A stretch of DNA of 64,000 bases, taken from assembly GCA_902826605.1 (NCBI GenBank), contig CADEFM010000013.1, positions 1-64,000 on the forward strand, written 5' to 3'. The translations under genes were made by a program, and so were the position numbers. Source of the DNA: an uncultured Acidobacteriota bacterium (GTDB taxonomy: Bacteria; Acidobacteriota; Terriglobia; Bryobacterales; Bryobacteraceae). Shown piece after piece: positions 33,180-44,073 of this stretch (its first letter is position 1; each line of letters starts with the position of its first letter). The notes under the pieces were generated by a model. The model saw nothing but the letters and a program-made list of their open reading frames with translations. It had not been told where the DNA came from and searched no databases.

Positions 33180-33911
33180 CTATTCGATGCGCAGGCCAAA
33201 TTCCCGGACTAGTTCCGGCGGAGATGGGGAGGCATGATACAGCCGGACCCAATAAACGCCAGGGTTGAATCCCTTGGACACATGTGCTTCCAGTTGAGTA
33301 ACTTTCTCCTCAGAAAGCGCGCTTCGCCAGACTTCCTTGCCGCTCGCATCCACGATCTGGAGCAGGTAACTGGTGCCCGCGCGGGGCAAACGGGTGGTAT
33401 CAATCGTCAGGTCGAGAGGTGTCTCCGCAGGGGCCAACGACACTCCGTCACTCGCAGCGCCGCGGAATGCCGAAAGCACCACGGTCGCAGGGGGGCCGAG
33501 TGGCGGTTTCCTTGTGACAATGAGCGCAACACATGCTACGAGGGCGACTCCGGCCGCAACCAGAGATAGGCGACGCGTCCCCGGCCAGCGTAAGATCTTT
33601 CGCCGCTGCTGGGGCCATCGCGGAGCGGCTGGACGGATGATTATCCACGTTAACCAGCGCTGCCAATAGGTTGGCCGGCGATGTCGCGCCTCGATGGCGG
33701 CCAACTCCGGCTTGAGCCACGACCCGAATTGAGAAGCCGAATCCAATACGTCCTGGCATTGATGACAATAAAGGACATGTTCTTCTAGGGCGTGGCAGGC
33801 GGGTTCCCGGATATGGCCGAATAGATACTCTTCGAGCATGTCATCCGTAGGATGAACACGGACAGCTTGCAGAACTCGCACAGGCATAGGCTCTCCGAAC
33901 TCAGACTCCAA
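33180..33911 (-). CDS. Membrane zinc-finger anti-sigma-like protein of the CHAT-sigma operon
   Basis: A 243-residue protein: N-terminal zf-HC2-type finger with H45-x3-C49-x2-C52 (LEEHVLYCHQC), a basic linker, one membrane helix (about 112-132, LSLVAAGVALVACVALIV) and a ~110-residue C-terminal domain that would be periplasmic (PLDLTIDTTRLPRAGTSYLLQIVD... GVYWVRLYH), a beta-sandwich by look. This is the classic anti-sigma topology. It is last in the operon, 46 bases after the sigma gene. The periplasmic domain would be reachable by the exported CHAT protein encoded first in the operon. Confidence 0.78.
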   Translation of the reverse strand: MESEFGEPMPVRVLQAVRVHPTDDMLEEYLFGHIREPACHALEEHVLYCHQCQDVLDSASQFGSWLKPELAAIEARHRRPTYWQRWLTWIIIRPAAPRWPQQRRKILRWPGTRRLSLVAAGVALVACVALIVTRKPPLGPPATVVLSAFRGAASDGVSLAPAETPLDLTIDTTRLPRAGTSYLLQIVDASGKEVWRSALSEEKVTQLEAHVSKGFNPGVYWVRLYHASPSPPELVREFGLRIE

Positions 33912-33957
33912 CGCCCGTACCGATTTGACATTACTACCGAATCGGGACGCTTTGTTA

Positions 33958-34719
33958 TTAGTGGGAAACGCCGGCGGAAGTTCTCACAAAAACTGCGTGC
34001 AAAGCTCGCGCGGCCAGCTTTTTTTTACCCAGCTCCCCAAATCGCGATTTGGCCCGGGATTTCAGCAGCCGGAATTGAGTTTCGGAAAGGCTCATCTGCG
34101 TGCAGATCTGCTCCTGACTTTGCTCGTGCAGATAAAAGCGGGTGAGGATTTCGCGATCGCGTTCGCTCAGTTCTCCTAATACTCGTCGTATCAATTCGGT
34201 GCGCTGACGGAACATGATGGCTTCCTCCGGATCGCCGCGGGGATCCACCACGCGGGCCCCCGATTTGTCCTGGTGTTCCTTGCGCGCTTGAACGGCCTTT
34301 TCAATGTGTGTTGCCACCAGACGGCGAACCACGGTTCGGACAAAACCCATCAGGCGTTCAGGTTCGCGGAGTTCCCCCCTCCGGATTGCCTGTACTACCA
34401 TCACAAACGTGTCATGAACCCGGTCGTCGAGATCCTGGGTGCCTAAGTGCCGGCATAGATGAAACCGGATGCCGCGGGAAAAGAGCTCATACAGTTCGGC
34501 CATGCCTTCGATTTTCCCCGAGTGAATTCTCTCCACCAAATCCACCCAAACGGCATAAATCTCAAGGTCGGGCGGTTCAAAACCGGAACGCGATTCCGGA
34601 CCCTCGGCGGAGCCCATTGAGTTCGCGGGGATGGAGCCCAGGTCCAGGGCGGAGTCCGCGTCGAACGCTTCAGCCGGCGCGCCGGCCGACGGTGGATCAT
34701 TTGCATGCGATTCGAACAT
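33958..34719 (-). CDS. Sigma-70 family factor of the CHAT-sigma operon
   Basis: A 253-residue sigma factor. An acidic ~55-residue N-terminal extension precedes region 2 (AELYELFSRGIRFHLCRHL.. DLDDRVHDTFVMVVQAI.. ERLMGFVRTVVRRLV) and region 4 (LSERDREILTRFYLHEQS, then an HTH ending FRLLKSRAKSRF). Its ATG abuts the TAA of the CHAT gene with no gap, so translation of the two is probably coupled. Paired with the downstream membrane zinc-finger protein as its presumed anti-sigma factor. Confidence 0.88.
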   Translation of the reverse strand: MFESHANDPPSAGAPAEAFDADSALDLGSIPANSMGSAEGPESRSGFEPPDLEIYAVWVDLVERIHSGKIEGMAELYELFSRGIRFHLCRHLGTQDLDDRVHDTFVMVVQAIRRGELREPERLMGFVRTVVRRLVATHIEKAVQARKEHQDKSGARVVDPRGDPEEAIMFRQRTELIRRVLGELSERDREILTRFYLHEQSQEQICTQMSLSETQFRLLKSRAKSRFGELGKKKLAARALHAVFVRTSAGVSH

Positions 34720-37194
34720 TTAACGGGTCCTTCCGGTAAACTGATACGACGCCCAATAAGCAGGAGCGCGACGCCACGTTCCCGAGTGAATCATGCCGAG
34801 CTGACTGAGGCGTAGCGCCTCCGCCGGCGGATTACTGCTTAGATACCGATAGAAGAGCGAAAAAATCTCGCCCGGCGAGTCCTCGACGGGCCAGGCGGTC
34901 GAGATCACCCCCCGCGCTCCCGCCATCAACCACGCGCGCGTAAGGCCCAGCAATCCGGCTCCGGACCGGGCATCGCCCGTACCCGTCGCGCACCCTGTCA
35001 TGACCACCAGCGCTTCAGGAACGTGGAGTGTGGCAATCTCAGATGTCGCCAGATATCCCGGCCGGGGACTCGCTTCCCCTGGCAGTCCCGACAAGCCGAA
35101 AGCGATAAATCCTTGCTCGGCCCGTGTGACTGGTGTCAATACGTGGGTAGCCAGGTGAATTACCGCCGGAGCTGGGCGGCCAGCGCCGGCTATCGCTTGC
35201 ACGAAGGCGGCCCGATTCGCTTGCGTTCCGGTCAATAGATTGGCCGTCCCACCGCTGGCGCGCCAGCGAGCCGCGCTTACGGACACTTCGGCCGCGCTTG
35301 CCACCAAGCGATCGAGTTGGCCTTGCCCGTCATGTCTCTTAACCCCGCTCCACCGCAAGTCTGCGGTGTTGTACACCGGATCTCCTACCGCCAGCATCAC
35401 ACCCGCGTAGGCGCCGGTGCGATCTGCGCGGGCGGCACTTTCCTGAGCCGCGGACGCGCCTGACAGCAACGCCCCCGGCACCACCTGTAGATTATGTTGT
35501 TCCACCAAATAAGCTGTGCTGCCATCCCGCCGCTCGGTCACCAACGCGGCAAACGGCGCTTCAAAAAGCACGCCCTCCAATGAAAGAAGCCATACCCGCT
35601 TTGCGATGTCCTCCGCCGTGAGTTCACCGAACAAAGTCCGGTACAGCAACTTCCCCAACCCCTCTGCCTCGGAATTACCCGTCCTGACGGCCTCGCGGAA
35701 AGCATGAACCTGCGCCGCGATGTGAGTCTCTGGCGGCAAGCGATGCATCCGAATGACTGCGCGGCTCACCGTCCACATGTAGGACTCCGTCTTACCTAAA
35801 TAGAAGCTTAAAATCAGCTCGCAGTCTCTTAACCCTTGTTGAAAATGAGTAAGTGAAGATCGCCCCCTAAAGTTCTCCATTTTCTTATGAGAAATTCCGC
35901 CACCTGCCTGAGTTTCCATTTCGGAAAGTTTCAAACGGAGACGATCCGCTTCTCCATTATTCTGGCTAGATTGCATTCGCTGGGCGTCTAATTTCCCGAG
36001 ATCTGCCGACACCCTCCAATACTCTTGAGGCAACCGCGATCGCCAAGCGTCCGCGAGTCCGAGACTGCTTCGCAAACTGGCGGCGCGGCTCGTCTCCACC
36101 GCTTGGAACGCTTGGCCGGCCAAGGCGGTATCGCCTGTTTCGGCTGCCTGCCTGGCTGCGAGTTGAATGTAGGATCGAAAGATCCGTTCCTCCATGGCGA
36201 CATTGTTCGCTACCAGCGCCGCGCGGGTGGGCAGCACTTGCAGACTGGCCCGTGCTGCGGCATCGGTGGCGATTGAAAAGTCTTCGAGCGCCGCGCGCGT
36301 TTGACCCAGCGCCTGGCGGATCAGGCCGCGCTGATGTTTCAGCATGTATTCGGGCCAAGTGAAGGCGCGTGCGGATGAGCCATTGTTCGCAGCGGGAGTA
36401 GCGAGCGCGTTCAATCGTGCGGCGCTCCACGGATCGTGATGCGCCAGCCGCAAGGCGGCGAGCCGGAAGTAGGACAATCCAAGTTCGCTTCGGTTTCCAA
36501 ATACCCGCGCACGAAAAGCTTCGCCAAACGCGAATTCCGCGTCCTCAAGACGTTCGTCGCGCAAGGCTTGATCGCCGAGCAGATCCCATCCTTGCGATTC
36601 CAATGCGAAGAGTCCCGACGCGCGCGCAGCTTCAATTCCGTCCGCAAAAAAAGCCCCCGCTTTGCCATCGTTTAAGAGCGCATGAATTCGGCCGGCTTGC
36701 ACCATGAGAAACGGCCTGGAATAACCCGCGGGTTTAGTTTCTGCGAGTCCATCTTCGACCGCGCGCAAAGCTGAAGAGACATCCCAGACCTGGAGATACA
36801 AACTGGAAAGGTTTACAGCGATGGCGCCCAAATCGGGGTTTGTGTTCTTCACGCCGCCGGCGCTTGCTAGCGCGCGTGCTTCGACAAACGTCGACAATGC
36901 AGCGGTGTATTGGAATCGCGCTAGTTGGCAACCACCGACACTAATCAAATACTTCACGGAGGCGATGGGATCGCCGTGTCGCACGCCGTCCTCATAGCCC
37001 TGGCGGTAAAGCTTTTCAGCAGACGCAAAATCGCCGACTTTGCGGTAGTTCGCGGCGTCGGATTGATAATGATGTGCGTCCTGATTCCATAGAACACTAG
37101 AGTCAGGCGATCTAGGCGGTGAGCCGGCCGCCCAGCGGGAACCGGTAGTCGAGAGAATGAGAATCAGGCAAAGGCACCAGGAAAAGGTTGCCAT
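34720..37194 (-). CDS. Exported TPR-CHAT (caspase-like) protein
   Basis: An 824-residue protein. A signal-peptide-like start (MATFSWCLCLILILSTTG) is followed by TPR-like helical repeats (about 45-400), a helical linker, and a C-terminal CHAT domain (about 530-820). The caspase-type dyad is intact: His684 in IHLATHVL and Cys735 in VVMTGCATGTG; the closing FYRYLSSNPPAEALRLSQ and AYWASYQFTG are typical CHAT ends. CHAT proteins are peptidases related to caspases and separase. It is first in an operon with a sigma factor and a membrane anti-sigma protein, so a role in releasing that sigma factor is inferred. A lipoprotein or cytosolic location is possible if the N-terminus is not cleaved. Confidence 0.88.
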   Translation of the reverse strand: MATFSWCLCLILILSTTGSRWAAGSPPRSPDSSVLWNQDAHHYQSDAANYRKVGDFASAEKLYRQGYEDGVRHGDPIASVKYLISVGGCQLARFQYTAALSTFVEARALASAGGVKNTNPDLGAIAVNLSSLYLQVWDVSSALRAVEDGLAETKPAGYSRPFLMVQAGRIHALLNDGKAGAFFADGIEAARASGLFALESQGWDLLGDQALRDERLEDAEFAFGEAFRARVFGNRSELGLSYFRLAALRLAHHDPWSAARLNALATPAANNGSSARAFTWPEYMLKHQRGLIRQALGQTRAALEDFSIATDAAARASLQVLPTRAALVANNVAMEERIFRSYIQLAARQAAETGDTALAGQAFQAVETSRAASLRSSLGLADAWRSRLPQEYWRVSADLGKLDAQRMQSSQNNGEADRLRLKLSEMETQAGGGISHKKMENFRGRSSLTHFQQGLRDCELILSFYLGKTESYMWTVSRAVIRMHRLPPETHIAAQVHAFREAVRTGNSEAEGLGKLLYRTLFGELTAEDIAKRVWLLSLEGVLFEAPFAALVTERRDGSTAYLVEQHNLQVVPGALLSGASAAQESAARADRTGAYAGVMLAVGDPVYNTADLRWSGVKRHDGQGQLDRLVASAAEVSVSAARWRASGGTANLLTGTQANRAAFVQAIAGAGRPAPAVIHLATHVLTPVTRAEQGFIAFGLSGLPGEASPRPGYLATSEIATLHVPEALVVMTGCATGTGDARSGAGLLGLTRAWLMAGARGVISTAWPVEDSPGEIFSLFYRYLSSNPPAEALRLSQLGMIHSGTWRRAPAYWASYQFTGRTR

Positions 37195-37626
37195 TGCTCG
37201 GTTTTCTTGTTCGAATACTCCACGTAATACTACCAGAGAACCAAATCATTTGCCAGATCTATACGTAGTAGTACTCTACATCGGGCGCGCCGCTTTGCGT
37301 TGGTTCGACTAGCTGTTCCTCCGGGTCTCTGGCAGGCCCGCCGTCTGTGACGGTCGGCGGTCAGGTGACGTAATTCCAAGTCTGTATGGAAGGCAAGAAG
37401 CGAGCCTTTCAGCTTGAATTCATGCTCCGACCTTTTTCGGTGATGTGCCACGTTCTCAACACTCTTGGCCTGGGTTTTCAAGTACGGCTTCCGCCGTCAC
37501 CCTCTTGCCGGCCATGTGGATATCTATGTGCCTATAGGGGGTAATCGAAGTAGCGAATATCGAGATTCTCCCACAATGAGTAGTGCACGAGTAACCCTCA
37601 TTGCAGCGAAGAACGAAAGGAACGAA
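37195..37626. other. Divergent intergenic region, CHAT operon / histidine kinase
   Basis: About 430 bases between the CHAT ATG and the likely kinase start. Near the CHAT gene a loose minus-strand promoter (CTGGCA, then TAGTAT after 18 bases) can be drawn. At 37341-37353 CCGTC-TGT-GACGG is a perfect small hairpin. An in-frame extension of the kinase gene back to 37465 exists but has no good ribosome-binding site. Nothing else is clear. Confidence 0.45.
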
Positions 37627-39249
37627 ATGGCCCACGCGCAGCTGTCACCGCCGCAGCCTGTAGTCCCCCTAGCGTCAATTCTCTGTACTGAGGAGTTACA
37701 GCGCCGCCCCTCCCGATTGCCCAATTCCGGCGCGGTTACCGATGCTTTGTTGAAGCTGGCGCGAACCATGGCGGATTCGCCCGAGAGTATCATGCAGCAG
37801 TTGGTCGATTCCGCGATGAACCTGTGTCAGGCACATTCGGCCGGGATCAGCCTGCTGGAAGAAGAAAATGGCCGGAAGATCTTCCGCTGGCACGGCGTCG
37901 CCGGTCAATACGCCCCGCATCTGGGAGGCACAACTCCCAGAGACTTCAGTCCATGTGGAACGGTTTTGGATACCGATGCCGTGCAATTGATGTCGCAGCT
38001 CGATCGTCATTTCGTATATTTCGCGGACGTTGAGCCCCGCATCGCGGAAGCGCTGCTGATTCCGCTTCGCGTTGCCGGCACGGCGGTCGGCACCATCTGG
38101 GTCATAGCCCACGATCTAACCCGCAAGTTTGACGCGGAAGACGCACGCGTGCTGGCCACTCTTGGGGAGTTCGCCGCAGCCGCTTACCAGGCGTTGGCCA
38201 AGGCCGTGGATTTGAATGGTATTGTCGCTACCATCCGTGAACCGCTTCTGCTGCTGGACGCCGACCTTCGCGTCAAGATCGCAAACCGATCCTTCTATCA
38301 GACCTTTCAAGTCACTCCCGAGGAGACTGCGGGACGCCTTTTCTTCGAGATTGGAAACGGGCAATGGGATATTCCGGCCCTGCGTGCGTCTTTGGAAGCA
38401 CTGCTGCCCAAGGAAAGCATGATCGAGAATTTTGAAGTCACGCAGGATTTTCCTGCGCTTGGGCAGAGAGTGATGGTGCTAAATGCCCGCCTGCTCCGTA
38501 ACGAGAACAGGCCTTCCAGTCTGATCCTGCTAGCCATCGATGACATCACCACGCGCAGACGCAAAGAAGACGAACTTCGCCGCTCCCAGGAAGACTCGCA
38601 GCGCTTTGCTTCCGTAGCGGCTCATGATCTCCGCGCCCCTCTAAATTCGTCCATGACGTTGCTGGAACTGCTCGACCGCAGGATCGGGAAAACGCTGGGG
38701 GGAAGCGACCGGCATTTATTGTCGCTCGCCAGAAATAACCTTAAGCGGCTGCAGGAATTGATGGGTGGGATCCTCGCCTACACTCGAGTGGGCGGTGCGC
38801 AACATCGGACGCTGATAGATTTACATGGGCCGCTGCAGGCGGCTCTGGATGGCTTCCAAAGTGAAATCGAAAGCGGGGAAATGTGTGTAGAGAACAGTCT
38901 TATGCCTTCCCTAAAAGCGGATGGCATTTTGATGACGCAGGTATTCCAGAACCTGATCAGCAATGCGTTCAAATTTCGTGCCGCCCGCCCGCTCGCGGTT
39001 AAGATACGGGCTGTCAGGGAGCTTGGGAAATGGGTCATGTCCATCGCCGATAACGGTGAAGGCTTCGATCCTCGCTACGCCGAACAGATTTTCCAGCCGT
39101 TCGCACGGCTGCACGGTTCCGAAGTCGACGGCAGCGGGATCGGTTTAGCCACATGTAAACGCATTATCCAGCGTCTCGGCGGCTGCATCTGGGCGGAAAG
39201 TGTGCCCGGACAAGGCGCGACGTTCTTTTTCACCCTGCCCGACGAGTAA
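37627..39249 (+). CDS. GAF-PAS sensor histidine kinase, phytochrome-like
   Basis: A 540-residue soluble kinase. GAF domain about 45-195 (ICRQ-like LCQAHSAGISLLEEENG, FSPCGTVLD, IPLRVAGTAVGTIWV), PAS domain about 200-310 (EPLLLLDADLRVKIANRSFYQTF), HisKA with His333 in AAHDLRAPLNS, and an HATPase domain (FQNLISNAFKFR, DNGEGFDP, SGIGLATCKRI). The GAF type is that seen in bacteriophytochrome-like kinases, but no chromophore Cys/His motif stands out. ATG 37627 is chosen for the AAAGGA site before it; a longer frame from 37465 is possible. Convergent with a lone receiver gene, a possible partner. Confidence 0.9.
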   Translation: MAHAQLSPPQPVVPLASILCTEELQRRPSRLPNSGAVTDALLKLARTMADSPESIMQQLVDSAMNLCQAHSAGISLLEEENGRKIFRWHGVAGQYAPHLGGTTPRDFSPCGTVLDTDAVQLMSQLDRHFVYFADVEPRIAEALLIPLRVAGTAVGTIWVIAHDLTRKFDAEDARVLATLGEFAAAAYQALAKAVDLNGIVATIREPLLLLDADLRVKIANRSFYQTFQVTPEETAGRLFFEIGNGQWDIPALRASLEALLPKESMIENFEVTQDFPALGQRVMVLNARLLRNENRPSSLILLAIDDITTRRRKEDELRRSQEDSQRFASVAAHDLRAPLNSSMTLLELLDRRIGKTLGGSDRHLLSLARNNLKRLQELMGGILAYTRVGGAQHRTLIDLHGPLQAALDGFQSEIESGEMCVENSLMPSLKADGILMTQVFQNLISNAFKFRAARPLAVKIRAVRELGKWVMSIADNGEGFDPRYAEQIFQPFARLHGSEVDGSGIGLATCKRIIQRLGGCIWAESVPGQGATFFFTLPDE

Positions 39250-39256
39250 TCGTCCT

Positions 39257-39673
39257 TCATCCCGTCGTGGACATCAGGAGTTCGGAATCGATGTCCAGCG
39301 GCAAGATGTTTGCCACCAGCGCCCGCAGTTGCTCCGGGATAAACGCCTTAGGGAGGAACTGCCAGCTTTCATTCAGAATGAGCATCCCGCCCGTGAATCC
39401 CGACATCAGCAGGATCTTAATGTTCGGAAGTTGACGAGTGATTTCCTTGGCCAACTCCATTCCAGTCATCCCCGCCATCTGGAAATCAGCCAAGAGAAGA
39501 TGAATCTCCTGCTGGCAGTCTCTCACTTGCTGAAGCGCCTCGTGACCGCTGATGGCAGTCAGCACATTGTAGTCGCCGATGAGCAGGTCGGCGATGAAGT
39601 TCAAATTCCGTGTTTGATCGTCAACCACCAGAATGGTTCTCGCACGGTGCGTGAATTCGGGGATTTGTAGCAT
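39257..39673 (-). CDS. Single-domain response regulator
   Basis: A 138-residue receiver domain without output domain. ILVVDDQ carries the acidic pair, phospho-acceptor Asp63 is in LLLADFQMAGMTG, the Thr/Ser position is LLMSGF, and the conserved Lys is in FLPKAF. It ends 7 bases from the convergent histidine kinase gene, so the two may form a pair despite opposite strands. Output must be through a protein partner. Confidence 0.9.
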   Translation of the reverse strand: MLQIPEFTHRARTILVVDDQTRNLNFIADLLIGDYNVLTAISGHEALQQVRDCQQEIHLLLADFQMAGMTGMELAKEITRQLPNIKILLMSGFTGGMLILNESWQFLPKAFIPEQLRALVANILPLDIDSELLMSTTG

Positions 39674-39935
39674 TCGGTGTTTGTCTATTCTCGGCGTGGA
39701 GCGATACGGCGATTCACTGCAAAAATCCGCTTGGCAGGGGAGAACCTCACCATCATCTCACAGTCACCCTCCGGAAGCGCTGCCCGAGCCATCCTGCCCT
39801 AGCCAATCGAGGAGGATGGCGTGTGCTGTCGTGGATGCTGTTCACGGTCTAAAATATTGTGAAACCTTCTTGATGGAAGCACCTCTAGTCCTCTTACCGG
39901 AACTTAAGCTAGATCCATAGGGGGCAACAGAACGA

Positions 39936-41993
39936 ATGCGTATTCTCGGGTGGAAAGCATTCCCACTATCGCTAGGCCAAATATCGCTATGCCAAGCAGG
40001 GAAGAGGCTACTCGCGCCTGCCTGTATCTGGCTGGCCGTTGCTATGCCCGCCGTGGCACAGCAGACCGCCAGTTCCTCCGATTCCGACGCTCTTAAGCAA
40101 CTAAGCCTGGAACAGTTGTCGGCGATTCAGATCACATCTGTCAACAAAGAACCCGTTACAGCTTTTCGCACTCCCGCGGCGATCACTGTGATGACCAGCG
40201 CTGATATCCGCCGGTCCGGCGCTCGAAATCTTCCCGACTTGTTGCGTCTCGCTCCAGGAGTGAACGTCGCGCAAAGCAATTCCAGCGAATGGGCCATTGG
40301 TATTCGGGGCTTCCAGAACGAGCTTTCGAAATCAGTACTAGTACTGATCGATGGACGTTCCGTGTATACTCCGTTGTTTGCCGGCGTGTACTGGGATATG
40401 CAGGACGTGCTGATCGAAGATATCGACCGGATCGAAGTCATCCGCGGACCGGGCGGGACGATCTGGGGTTCTAATGCGGTGAACGGGGTGATTAATATCA
40501 TCACCAAAAGCGCCCGGGACACCCACGGTTCCATGATTTCCTCCGGTGGGGGAAACGTGGAGCAAGGATTTCTGAATTGGCGCTATGGCGGCGGCAAGGG
40601 CGAACTGAATTACCGGATTTATGGGAAAGGCTTCACGCGCGCTCCTCAGTTGCATGCGGACGCCCGCAACTGGGATGACTGGCGCCGCACGCAAGCCGGT
40701 TTTCGGATCGATTGGCGTACTAGCGAACGGGATGAGTTGACAATACAAGGAGACGCGTACGGCGGCGAGGCTGGACAGAAACTCCAACTCAGCACCTTCT
40801 CGCCGCCCACGATCACGGTAGCCGAGGCCGATAAGAACTTCAACGGGCAAAATCTCATGCTCGCGTGGCGGCACCTCTTTGCCTCGGGTTCGGATCTTCA
40901 GATCCGCACGTTTTTCGACCGCACCGGCCGCCAGGAATTGAATTATCGGGAGAACCGGAACACATTTGACTTCGATTTGATCCACCATATCCCTTGGAAA
41001 CGCCACAACGTGAGTTGGGGACTGGGCGCGCGTGTGAGTCCGAGCCATTTTTTCCAGACTCTCCCAACGGTGAATTTCATTCCGCACACGCAAACCTACA
41101 ACATTTTCAGCGCATTTGTTCAGGACGACCTTGCGCTAGTCCGCGATCGCTTGTCGCTTACCATCGGAAGCAAGTTCGAGCATACGACCTTCAGCGGATT
41201 CAACGCCCAACCTAGCGTTCGGCTCAATTGGACGCCCACGAGGCGTTACACCGTGTGGGCGGCCGTAACGCGCGCGGTTCGGACTGCATCGAGGATTGAG
41301 GACGGATTCAATTTCAGCTTCCTCGCGCAACCCACTCTGCCCCTATATCTGCGGTTGATCGGCGATGGAAAATTCACTCCTGAGCAAATGATGGGGTACG
41401 AATTCGGCCACCGCAACTACATTGGCTCGCACGGCATCCTCTCCGTGTCGGTATTCCATAACCGCTACGACGACTTGCTCAGCGTGGAAAGCGGGCCCCC
41501 GACGGTTGAAACCGAGCCAGCGGCGACTCGACTGGTGCTGCCGCTGTTTCTAAGGAACGGGGTGCTGGCTAACGGCACCGGCGGCGAGGTGGCGATGTTG
41601 TGGGACCTCACCAAGTGGCTACGCGTGCGCCCTTCTTATTCACTGATCTTCTTGGACGCCAAGAGGGCCGCGTTTAGTAACGATGCCTCCACAGTTGGGC
41701 AACTGGAAGGCGATACGGCCCAACATAAAGCGGTCGTCCAGGCCTCCTTCACGCTTCCAAAACGCTTCGATCTGGATATGTTTTACCGGTACGTCAGTTC
41801 CGTGCCGAATCAGAGAGTTCCTTCCTATTCTACAGGCGATGTCCGCTTGAGCAGGCGTTTAGGCGAACATCTGGAGATCGAAGTGGTTGGGAGGAACCTC
41901 CTCCAACCCTCGCATGTGGAATACGGTGGATCCCCGGGACCGTTGGTGGGGATCCGGCGAAGCGGATATCTGTCCCTGACATGGAACCAGTGA
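39936..41993 (+). CDS. TonB-dependent outer-membrane receptor of a sensory operon
   Basis: A 685-residue receptor: signal peptide (about 1-40, ending PAVAQQ), a plug (LKQLSLEQLSAIQITSVNKEPV, then ADIRRSGARNLPDLLRLAPGVNV, IEVIRGPGGTIWGSNAVNGVINI) and a barrel ending in YLSLTWNQ. The LSLEQL..I.ITSV..EP start is characteristic of a receptor subgroup found beside signalling proteins rather than uptake genes. It lacks the carboxypeptidase-like N-domain of the receptor at 20793. The YfiR gene overlaps its end by 13 bases. Confidence 0.9.
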   Translation: MRILGWKAFPLSLGQISLCQAGKRLLAPACIWLAVAMPAVAQQTASSSDSDALKQLSLEQLSAIQITSVNKEPVTAFRTPAAITVMTSADIRRSGARNLPDLLRLAPGVNVAQSNSSEWAIGIRGFQNELSKSVLVLIDGRSVYTPLFAGVYWDMQDVLIEDIDRIEVIRGPGGTIWGSNAVNGVINIITKSARDTHGSMISSGGGNVEQGFLNWRYGGGKGELNYRIYGKGFTRAPQLHADARNWDDWRRTQAGFRIDWRTSERDELTIQGDAYGGEAGQKLQLSTFSPPTITVAEADKNFNGQNLMLAWRHLFASGSDLQIRTFFDRTGRQELNYRENRNTFDFDLIHHIPWKRHNVSWGLGARVSPSHFFQTLPTVNFIPHTQTYNIFSAFVQDDLALVRDRLSLTIGSKFEHTTFSGFNAQPSVRLNWTPTRRYTVWAAVTRAVRTASRIEDGFNFSFLAQPTLPLYLRLIGDGKFTPEQMMGYEFGHRNYIGSHGILSVSVFHNRYDDLLSVESGPPTVETEPAATRLVLPLFLRNGVLANGTGGEVAMLWDLTKWLRVRPSYSLIFLDAKRAAFSNDASTVGQLEGDTAQHKAVVQASFTLPKRFDLDMFYRYVSSVPNQRVPSYSTGDVRLSRRLGEHLEIEVVGRNLLQPSHVEYGGSPGPLVGIRRSGYLSLTWNQ

Positions 41994-42613
41994 AAGGCCA
42001 CCCGCCAGTTCCTATCCATTTCCCTTACTTGTGGCGCTGGTATTCGCGGCGGGGGCAGGGCCGGTGCGGACTGCTCCGAGGAATGCTAGCTGTCCTGCTT
42101 CTCTGGGACCAAACGTTGGCAGCTCAAGAAGATTCGAGGCGGACGGCCGCGCGCGAACTCCCGGAATACCAGGTCAAGGCCGCTTTTCTCCTGAATTTTG
42201 CGCGCTTTGTTGAATGGCCGGCTACGCAGACCGTGGGAGTGGCAGGCAATAGTCCGCTAACCATATGCATAGCGGGAGACGATCCTTTCGGAGGAACACT
42301 AGATCGCTTGGCGCGCGGGGAAGCCGTCAACGGCCGCCCCGTCGTGATCCGGCGTTTTTGGCAACGGGAAAGTACTTGCCAGATTCTGTTTGTCAGCGGG
42401 TCGGAGCGCGATCTTTTCCGCGCGCTTGGCAGGGCGGAACCCGGCGTCCTAACTGTTGGTGAAGACGCCGCGTTTCTGACCGAAGGCGGCATGATCAATT
42501 TCGTCGTTGAAGACCGGCGAGTTCGTTTCGACGTGAACTTGAAGGCAGCGGAACGCGCTTCGGTGCGAATCAGCTCACGGCTCTTGAGCGTAGCGAGGTC
42601 CGTGTTGCGATGA
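41981..42613 (+). CDS. YfiR-family (DUF4154) periplasmic protein
   Basis: A 210-residue protein. After a basic N-terminus and hydrophobic segment (LLRGMLAVLLLWDQTLAAQ) comes the YfiR domain: YQVKAAFLLNFARFVEWPA, SPLTICIAGDDPFG, CQILFVSGSERD, VLTVGEDAAFLTEGGMINF and VRFDVNLKAAERASVRISSRLLS. In Pseudomonas, YfiR is a periplasmic repressor that binds the periplasmic domain of the cyclase YfiN. Here the next gene is a kinase with a similar periplasmic domain, so it should repress that kinase. The exact start is uncertain (41981 or an internal ATG at 42083). Confidence 0.87.
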   Translation: MEPVKGHPPVPIHFPYLWRWYSRRGQGRCGLLRGMLAVLLLWDQTLAAQEDSRRTAARELPEYQVKAAFLLNFARFVEWPATQTVGVAGNSPLTICIAGDDPFGGTLDRLARGEAVNGRPVVIRRFWQRESTCQILFVSGSERDLFRALGRAEPGVLTVGEDAAFLTEGGMINFVVEDRRVRFDVNLKAAERASVRISSRLLSVARSVLR

Positions 42614-44073
42614 CCTGGTCGACCCGCATCGCCGCCCGCGTTCGCCGGATGCCGATCCGGCAGAAACTGAGAGTCACGTTTTTTCTCACCACTGCGCTCG
42701 CGCTGCTGCTGGCAGGTTTCGGAATCATCGCGGCGGATGTGCTGATTTCCTACAGGGGCCTCCAGACCGACCTTTCGACGTTCGCTCAAATCATCGGCGA
42801 CAACAGCACCGGAGCGCTGGCATTTAACGATGCACGCGCGGCCACGGAGACGCTTGCCGCCTTACGGTCCAGAAAGCATGTGCAGGCCGCGTGTATCTAT
42901 CAAAGCGATGGCACGCGGCTGGCGGTATACATGCGGCCGGGATATCGCGGTGACTGTCCCCGGCCGGAGGGCGAACAGATCCTTCGCATGAGGGAGATTT
43001 TGGTGATCTCGCACCAGATTTCCCGCGGCAGCCGACCCTTGGGCACGCTCGTGCTGCAGTACGATCTGTACGAACTCTCAGAACGGATTCAGCTTTACGG
43101 TGGAACGGTGCTCATTGCATTGCTCCTCTCGAGCGTTGCCGCCGGGATCTTTTCATCAAAGCTACGCGCGCTGATTGCGGACCCCATCCTGGAGTTGGCC
43201 AGCACCGCGCATGTGGTGGCGCAATCCAGGGATTACGGTGTCCGGGCAAAGAAGCTCTCGGAAGATGAAGTGGGGCTGCTGGCGGAGGCGCTGAATGAAA
43301 TGCTGAACGCCATTCAATCGCGCGACAGCGACTTGCGAGTCGCGCTCAAGGCGGAGCAGGACGCTGGAAGGCGCTTAGAACGGCTTAATGCGGATCTGAA
43401 GCGGTCCAATCAGGATCTGGAGCGCGTTGCTTTTGTCGCGAGTCATGATCTGCAGGAACCGCTGCGGATGATTACCTCATATTCTCAGCTGCTCGTGGAA
43501 CAGCATTCCGGGGACGGTGGTCCCTTTGTTAAATACATTGTTGATGGCACCCACCGCATGCGCGATCTATTGGCGGACCTATTGGCATACACTGAAGTTT
43601 CGGGTTCCGCGGAACAGCCGTTTGATCTGGTGGATCTGAACTTGGTCGTGCAGAACGTGAGAGAGACCCTGAGCGGTCAAATTTCCGAAACGCAAGCGGA
43701 AATCGTCGCCGATCCACTGCCCGTCCTCAAAGGCCACACAGGACGCATCACCTCGGTTTTCCTGAACCTAACCGGCAACGCCATCAAGTATCGCAACAAC
43801 CGGCCGCCGCGAATCCATATATCGGTCCAAGACTCGGGCGACGAGTTCACATTTTCCTTCCAGGATAACGGCATCGGCATCGCACCCGAGTATCATCAGA
43901 AAATCTTTGTGGCGTTCAAACGCCTGCACGGACGGGAAATTCCCGGCACCGGCATAGGACTGGCCATATGCCAACGAATCGTCGAAAACTATGGAGGACG
44001 GATCTGGGTGCAGTCCGAAATCGGCAAGGGGACCACGTTTCTGTTTACCTTGCCTAAGATCATGGCCCCCTAG
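42610..44073 (+). CDS. CHASE8-like/HAMP sensor histidine kinase
   Basis: A 487-residue membrane kinase. Helix 1 about 20-48, a periplasmic domain of ~110 residues (FAQIIGDNSTGALAFNDARAAT, ALRSRKHVQAACIYQSDGT) resembling CHASE8 of YfiN-type proteins, helix 2 about 160-180, HAMP (DPILELASTAHVVAQSRDY), a coiled coil, HisKA with His279 in ASHDLQEPLRM, and HATPase (LNLTGNAIKYR, DNGIGIAPEY, GTGIGLAICQRI). The ATG overlaps the yfiR stop (ATGA). It should pass phosphate to the receiver encoded 9 bases downstream. Confidence 0.9.
   Translation: MTWSTRIAARVRRMPIRQKLRVTFFLTTALALLLAGFGIIAADVLISYRGLQTDLSTFAQIIGDNSTGALAFNDARAATETLAALRSRKHVQAACIYQSDGTRLAVYMRPGYRGDCPRPEGEQILRMREILVISHQISRGSRPLGTLVLQYDLYELSERIQLYGGTVLIALLLSSVAAGIFSSKLRALIADPILELASTAHVVAQSRDYGVRAKKLSEDEVGLLAEALNEMLNAIQSRDSDLRVALKAEQDAGRRLERLNADLKRSNQDLERVAFVASHDLQEPLRMITSYSQLLVEQHSGDGGPFVKYIVDGTHRMRDLLADLLAYTEVSGSAEQPFDLVDLNLVVQNVRETLSGQISETQAEIVADPLPVLKGHTGRITSVFLNLTGNAIKYRNNRPPRIHISVQDSGDEFTFSFQDNGIGIAPEYHQKIFVAFKRLHGREIPGTGIGLAICQRIVENYGGRIWVQSEIGKGTTFLFTLPKIMAP

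Follow-up and report, generated by a model that had tools for sequence, protein, structure and literature searches.

A three-gene unit for a probably exported TPR-CHAT protein, an ECF sigma factor and a membrane anti-sigma factor in Acidobacteriota: a candidate first protease in anti-sigma proteolysis without CRISPR

We describe a three-gene unit from an uncultured soil Acidobacteriota bacterium of the family Bryobacteraceae, located in a 64,000-nt stretch of contig CADEFM010000013.1 that is referred to below as the window. On the minus strand, from 37194 to 33180, lie adjacent genes for a protein that combines tetratricopeptide repeats (TPR) with a CHAT protease domain (TPR-CHAT), for an extracytoplasmic function (ECF) sigma factor, and for a membrane anti-sigma factor. 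An earlier interpretation made from the letters of the window (the sequence-only reading) had placed the three genes at this position and strand and had described the sigma start codon as abutting the CHAT stop codon. Both statements were confirmed: the sigma ATG (34719-34717) directly adjoins the CHAT TAA (34722-34720), and the spacing of the three genes looks like that of a single transcription unit.

The first gene encodes a TPR-CHAT protein of 824 aa (34720..37194, minus strand, stop included), for which an AlphaFold2 model with a pLDDT (predicted local distance difference test) score of 83 was compared with known structures using Foldseek. Its CHAT protease domain, residues 513-821 (34732..35658, minus strand), scores 142.9 bits against PF12770, for which the cut-off is 24. 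The TPR region, residues 39-431 (35902..37080, minus strand), is delimited by helix pairs in the model and by TPR matches. The catalytic dyad that the sequence-only reading had called intact is formed by His684 (codon 35143..35145, read 35145-35143) and Cys735 (codon 34990..34992, read 34992-34990), both on the minus strand; the two residues are conserved without exception, in 33/33 family members and in all complete wider partners, across three phyla. The best Foldseek matches are the Craspase TPR-CHAT, DdvA, and separase, and by Z score the model is closest to Csx29 (Z 25.7, root-mean-square deviation 9.6 over 564 residues). The profile search against solved structures used the CHAT part alone, the full TPR-CHAT profile being swamped by TPRs, and it recovered separase at E 1.3e-7 and Craspase proteases at about 1e-4 to 1e-6. 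An argument from the S1 pocket, which equated Asp772 with the P1-binding Asp of separase, was dropped because the residues misalign when counted from the catalytic Cys.

At its N-terminus the TPR-CHAT protein carries a hydrophobic segment of the export type, about residues 1-24 (37123..37194, minus strand; KD11 2.75), which appears in the model as a low-confidence leader with a helix at residues 8-18, the first TPR helix starting at residue 39. A hydrophobic segment is found at this place in 43/46 CHAT partners and is preceded by Lys or Arg in 38/46, the partners that lack either feature being mostly those with uncertain starts. Several TPR-CHAT proteins of a sister module bear lipoprotein-type (lipobox) leaders, for example MRCWFVLLVVFGAVSC-SRR. 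These signals make it probable that the TPR-CHAT protein faces the same side of the membrane as the outer domain of the anti-sigma factor.

The second gene encodes a sigma factor of 253 aa (33958..34719, minus strand). It is assigned to the ECF class, defined by the possession of sigma-70 regions 2 and 4 only, through TIGR02937 (53.6 bits, cut-off 42.9) and Sigma70_r4_2 (34.6 versus 25.7 bits); region 2 taken separately remains below its Pfam cut-off (18.2 versus 24 bits). Its identity to orthologues in relatives is 50-80%, and no solved sigma-factor structure matched it at E 0.001.

The third gene encodes a single-pass membrane anti-sigma factor (33180..33911, minus strand). Its listed start is TTG 33911; because of comparison with the closest relative (L033), the true start is probably the downstream ATG 33887. 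The cytoplasmic anti-sigma domain contains an HxxxCxxC zinc motif (H45, C49, and C52; 33756..33779, minus strand; alignment A3) and is followed by a transmembrane helix at residues 113-133 (33513..33575, minus strand; KD19 2.65 at 115-133), which is also a helix in the model. The outer part, residues 139-243 (33183..33497, minus strand), is a beta-sandwich domain that is all-beta at 142-242 in the model and has immunoglobulin-like structural matches with Z up to 9.4. The sequence-only reading had described a zf-HC2 single-pass protein with an outer domain; the zinc motif, the transmembrane helix, and the beta outer part bear this out, and the protein's own match to zf-HC2 stays below the Pfam cut-off, which 13/25 family members reach. 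Among solved anti-sigma domains the family profile matches ChrR at E 8.5e-4, which we count as a match, RsiW at E 0.031, and the N-terminus of DdvA weakly, at E 0.3.

In an alignment of 49 outer domains (A6; mean pairwise identity 23%), a single column is invariant, that of Arg150 (codon 33462..33464, minus strand; 49/49). At the next position 36 domains have Gly, 7 Ser, 5 Ala, and 1 Asp, so that Gly, Ser, or Ala follows the Arg in 48/49. In the model Arg150 lies just past the first beta strand and ahead of a low-confidence loop at 152-154. No acidic column is invariant among the 49 domains, and consequently no fixed salt-bridge partner for Arg150 is evident. The Arg is retained even in L131, L135, and L136, where the zinc ligands are lost. 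The pattern of an invariant Arg followed by Gly, Ser, or Ala suggests a candidate Arg|Gly cut site, and its presence in the outer domain makes cleavage of the anti-sigma factor more likely. The outer domain also accompanies CHAT: it was detected at E<1e-20 in 4/4 CHAT-bearing genomes of the family that were checked, and in 12 CHAT-less relatives the best match reached only E 0.004 and lay in a much larger protein.

Comparison of related genomes shows that the three genes belong together. A match to the window CHAT was present in 40/61 related genomes, counting the one from which the window comes; sigma is the next gene in all 31 relatives that have sequence beyond the CHAT stop, with a gap mostly of -4 to +35 nt, and the anti-sigma gene then follows sigma in 28/30 testable loci. 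In the two exceptions (L057 and L061) an orthologue with zinc domain, transmembrane helix, and outer domain is encoded elsewhere in the same genome. Since flanking genes are common to at most 8 loci, CHAT, sigma, and anti-sigma are the unit. The sequence-only reading depended on CHAT and the sigma pair being kept together in relatives, and the arrangement is indeed conserved far beyond chance. In L061 (10627-12537, plus strand) the CHAT-sigma pair is followed by genes resembling an ImuA/ImuB mutagenesis cassette, with the anti-sigma gene about 460 kb away.

A search for further loci with the window CHAT as query returned none, and the sigma alignment was used instead. At the phylum level the sigma profile (A2), in which CHAT was not part of the query, placed five genomes above threshold, and all three of those outside the family contain the full trio. 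When four of these sigma factors were used to scan species genomes, 20 good loci were obtained, 4 of which are the query loci themselves; a TPR-CHAT gene lies within about 2.2 kb in 17/20, and all three genes are found in 16/20. The loci span Acidobacteriota, Myxococcaceae, several Gammaproteobacteria, and one metagenome-assembled genome labelled Cyanobacteria. As the phylum searches score few candidates per genome, these tallies are lower limits. The link among the genes is both strong and wide.

Loci of TPR-CHAT paralogues in the window's family also contain sigma and anti-sigma genes in 10/20, mostly in another order and with a gap before CHAT. A second type of module is recognizable in the same family (L167, L169-L172, L177, L178, L181, and L096), in which a sigma and then an anti-sigma gene precede a TPR-CHAT gene at a distance of about 500-860 bases; in some loci this gap holds a frame of 250-280 aa, and the TPR-CHAT product often has a lipoprotein-type leader. 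In L162 (3904-4986, minus strand) sigma region 2 and zf-HC2 occur in one open frame beside TPR-CHAT, which is either a sigma/anti-sigma fusion or an assembly slip. Upstream of the second TPR-CHAT gene of another genome (L067:9649-10939, minus strand) are two small frames that look sigma-like and zinc/membrane-like by eye; neither matched Pfam.

Upstream of CHAT lies a conserved element, CTGGTAGTAT (37227..37236, minus strand), recognized by comparison of upstream regions as a probable extended -10 promoter of vegetative-like type (CTGGTAnnAT). The element scores at least 7 of 10 in 22/30 upstream regions, compared to 6.6% of shuffled ones. An autoregulatory ECF promoter was looked for upstream of CHAT and not seen, there being no conserved ECF-type -35, and the promoter region weighs mildly against CHAT as a target of the sigma factor. 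In other genera (L051, L055, L058, L059, L061, and L062) a near-perfect hairpin, CCTAGGAGTAC..GTACTCCTAGG, of about -23 to -30 kcal/mol, stands right after CTGGTAnnAT; it would sit at the 5' end of the mRNA, its arms covary in L055, and it is absent from the window's genus. A palindrome that other genera carry ahead of the operon was examined as a possible genome-wide operator, but it occurs almost only at this operon.

The operon is flanked downstream by a gene for a 2-hydroxyacid dehydrogenase with an ACT domain and upstream by a divergent GAF-PAS histidine kinase gene. The upstream side (window 37465-44073) holds two sensor kinases, a lone response regulator, a TonB-type receptor plug protein, and a YfiR-like protein. 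The description of the locus as CRISPR-free is supported: Cas1 is absent from the genome, which is 100% complete, and there is no direct-repeat array in 23000-48000 of the window. By these two measures a Csx29/type III-E context, in which the protease is accompanied by Cas7-11 and a CRISPR array, is absent, Cas7-11 itself not having been searched for, and PADLOC defence models gave no match.

Our interpretation, to which we assign a probability of about one half, is that regulated proteolysis of the anti-sigma factor begins with a cut by an exported caspase-fold CHAT protease and does not involve CRISPR. The anti-sigma factor would use its zinc domain to keep the ECF sigma factor at the cytoplasmic face of the inner membrane, and the exported TPR-CHAT protein would face the outer domain. 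The CHAT protease would become active in response to a signal, for which the TPR region is the probable sensor, and would cleave the outer domain, most likely at the Arg|Gly bond that follows Arg150, so that a short stub is left protruding from the membrane. Release of the sigma factor would then depend on a site-2 protease of the RseP/M50 type together with cytoplasmic proteases. M50 proteases are present in the genome; they are near universal, and their presence is weak support. The gene linkage, the intact dyad, the topology signals, the invariant Arg, and the co-occurrence of the outer domain with CHAT are seen directly, and the topology is probable; from these observations we infer, on good grounds, that cleavage may occur, and also the binding of the two proteins, the position of the cut, the signal, the release of sigma, and the genes under its control.

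The known system closest to this design is DdvA-DdvS of Myxococcus xanthus, in which RseP has been suggested to act after a caspase-like step. The TPR-CHAT part of DdvA lies outside the membrane and its dyad is described as incomplete, whereas the dyad described here is intact and the TPR-CHAT is a separate, probably exported protein. The sequence-only reading had proposed that CHAT may cut the periplasmic domain of the anti-sigma factor, as proteolysis across the envelope; the linkage and the export signals behind this proposal hold, and the DdvA precedent was missed, so the idea is less unprecedented than it was made to appear. DdvA-DdvS (PDB 8rot, 8rw5, 8rlz) shares with our system an ECF sigma factor encoded alongside and a transmembrane anti-sigma factor with a cytoplasmic zinc domain, seen here as the HxxxCxxC motif and the transmembrane helix. 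In DdvA, anti-sigma and TPR-CHAT are parts of a single membrane protein (PDB 8rot, 8rw5) that is without a beta-sandwich domain, whereas here they are encoded by two separate genes and the anti-sigma factor has its own beta-sandwich with the invariant Arg-Gly. DdvS is the regulator of a CBASS/type III-B CRISPR island (PMC12288465); the genome studied here has no Cas1. In type III-E CRISPR, Csx29 cuts Csx30, an inhibitor of an ECF-like sigma factor (PMC10028731); our system resembles this Craspase in the TPR-CHAT fold, the His-Cys dyad, and the link to a sigma factor and its inhibitor, and differs in that there is no CRISPR, CHAT would be exported, and the sigma inhibitor carries a zinc domain and spans the membrane. 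The proposed logic of a cut outside the membrane, a second inside it, and release of an ECF sigma factor is that of DegS-RseA-RseP and PrsW-RsiW, except that the first protease here would be a caspase-fold cysteine protease from the same operon instead of a serine (HtrA) or PrsW-type protease. Operons predicted in myxobacteria, Ralstonia, and Fibrobacter also combine a caspase-like gene with a sigma-70 factor (Asplund-Samuelsson 2012, PMC3501461); the gene is a metacaspase (Peptidase C14) and not CHAT, and the passages found of that paper name no anti-sigma partner or mechanism. Separase likewise consists of a TPR-like helical part and a caspase-fold domain, but is eukaryotic, is not exported, and cuts cohesin. 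No description of the split CHAT, sigma, and anti-sigma arrangement was found in the literature searched, whose coverage misses many journals. The split exported TPR-CHAT with an intact dyad is a variant of the DdvA/Craspase theme, not a new kind.

Several observations weigh against an exported CHAT that cuts the anti-sigma factor. Three sigma loci (L123, L134, and L138) have no full CHAT nearby. The anti-sigma factors of L141 (6597-7340) and L175 (3093-3839) adjoin TPR-CHAT and have a TPR-like outer part with no Arg-Gly motif, and therefore Arg150 is not required by all CHAT partners; it could be structural rather than a cut site. The window's own leader, MATFSWCLCLILILSTTGSR, has no Lys or Arg before its hydrophobic core and an Arg after it, which is atypical for a signal peptide. 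The active site of DdvA, the nearest solved relative, is described as incomplete, and some members of the group may not cut.

CHAT might instead be the output of the system, with the sigma and anti-sigma factors sensing envelope stress via another protease and determining how much is made of an exported CHAT whose substrates are other proteins of the envelope. ECF sigma factors often activate their own operon, and the spacing of the three genes would fit this; yet CHAT lies upstream of sigma behind a vegetative-like extended -10 element with no conserved ECF-type -35, the outer domain tracks the presence of CHAT, and in DdvA the TPR-CHAT belongs to the anti-sigma factor itself. We regard CHAT as output as rather unlikely. 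It is unlikely, too, that CHAT acts without cutting, as a sensor or clamp bound to the outer domain that alters recognition of the anti-sigma factor by the sigma factor or by another protease: TPRs bind proteins, the DdvA dyad is described as incomplete, and the loop following Cys735 (737-746) has pLDDT <50 in the AlphaFold model, but a pure binder would not need the His684 and Cys735 that every complete partner has kept across three phyla.

If the protease does cut, it may do so in the linker near the membrane, with Arg150 having a structural role in the beta-sandwich. Structural residues are common at the end of a beta strand, where Arg150 lies, and Craspase relatives cut a non-conserved site (PMC11106740). 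This appears improbable for a residue that is the sole invariant one, lacks an acidic partner that is likewise invariant, and has a small residue after it in 48/49 domains. Finally, a cytoplasmic CHAT could act there on sigma or anti-sigma in the manner of Csx29, which works on a sigma inhibitor in the cytoplasm, and the window's atypical N-terminus would agree with this. Such a location is very improbable given the hydrophobic segment in 43/46 partners, the Lys or Arg ahead of it in 38/46, and the lipobox-type leaders of sister CHATs, so that the export proposed in the sequence-only reading is probable for the group, with the window's own copy as its weaker example.

More generally, we tentatively suggest, at somewhat less than even odds, a widespread class of ECF sigma factors switched on by a dedicated exported protease of the caspase/separase fold that cuts a beta-sandwich bait after an invariant Arg (Arg|Gly), which would be a third kind of site-1 protease beside DegS and PrsW and not tied to CRISPR. 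The substrates of most bacterial CHAT proteases are unknown, and many of these proteases now receive a defined candidate substrate and a single candidate residue within it. The CRISPR (Csx29-Csx30) and defence (DdvA) cases fit a broader pattern in which caspase-fold proteases serve as sigma switches, and, should this hold, the CRISPR version would represent a single specialised branch of them.

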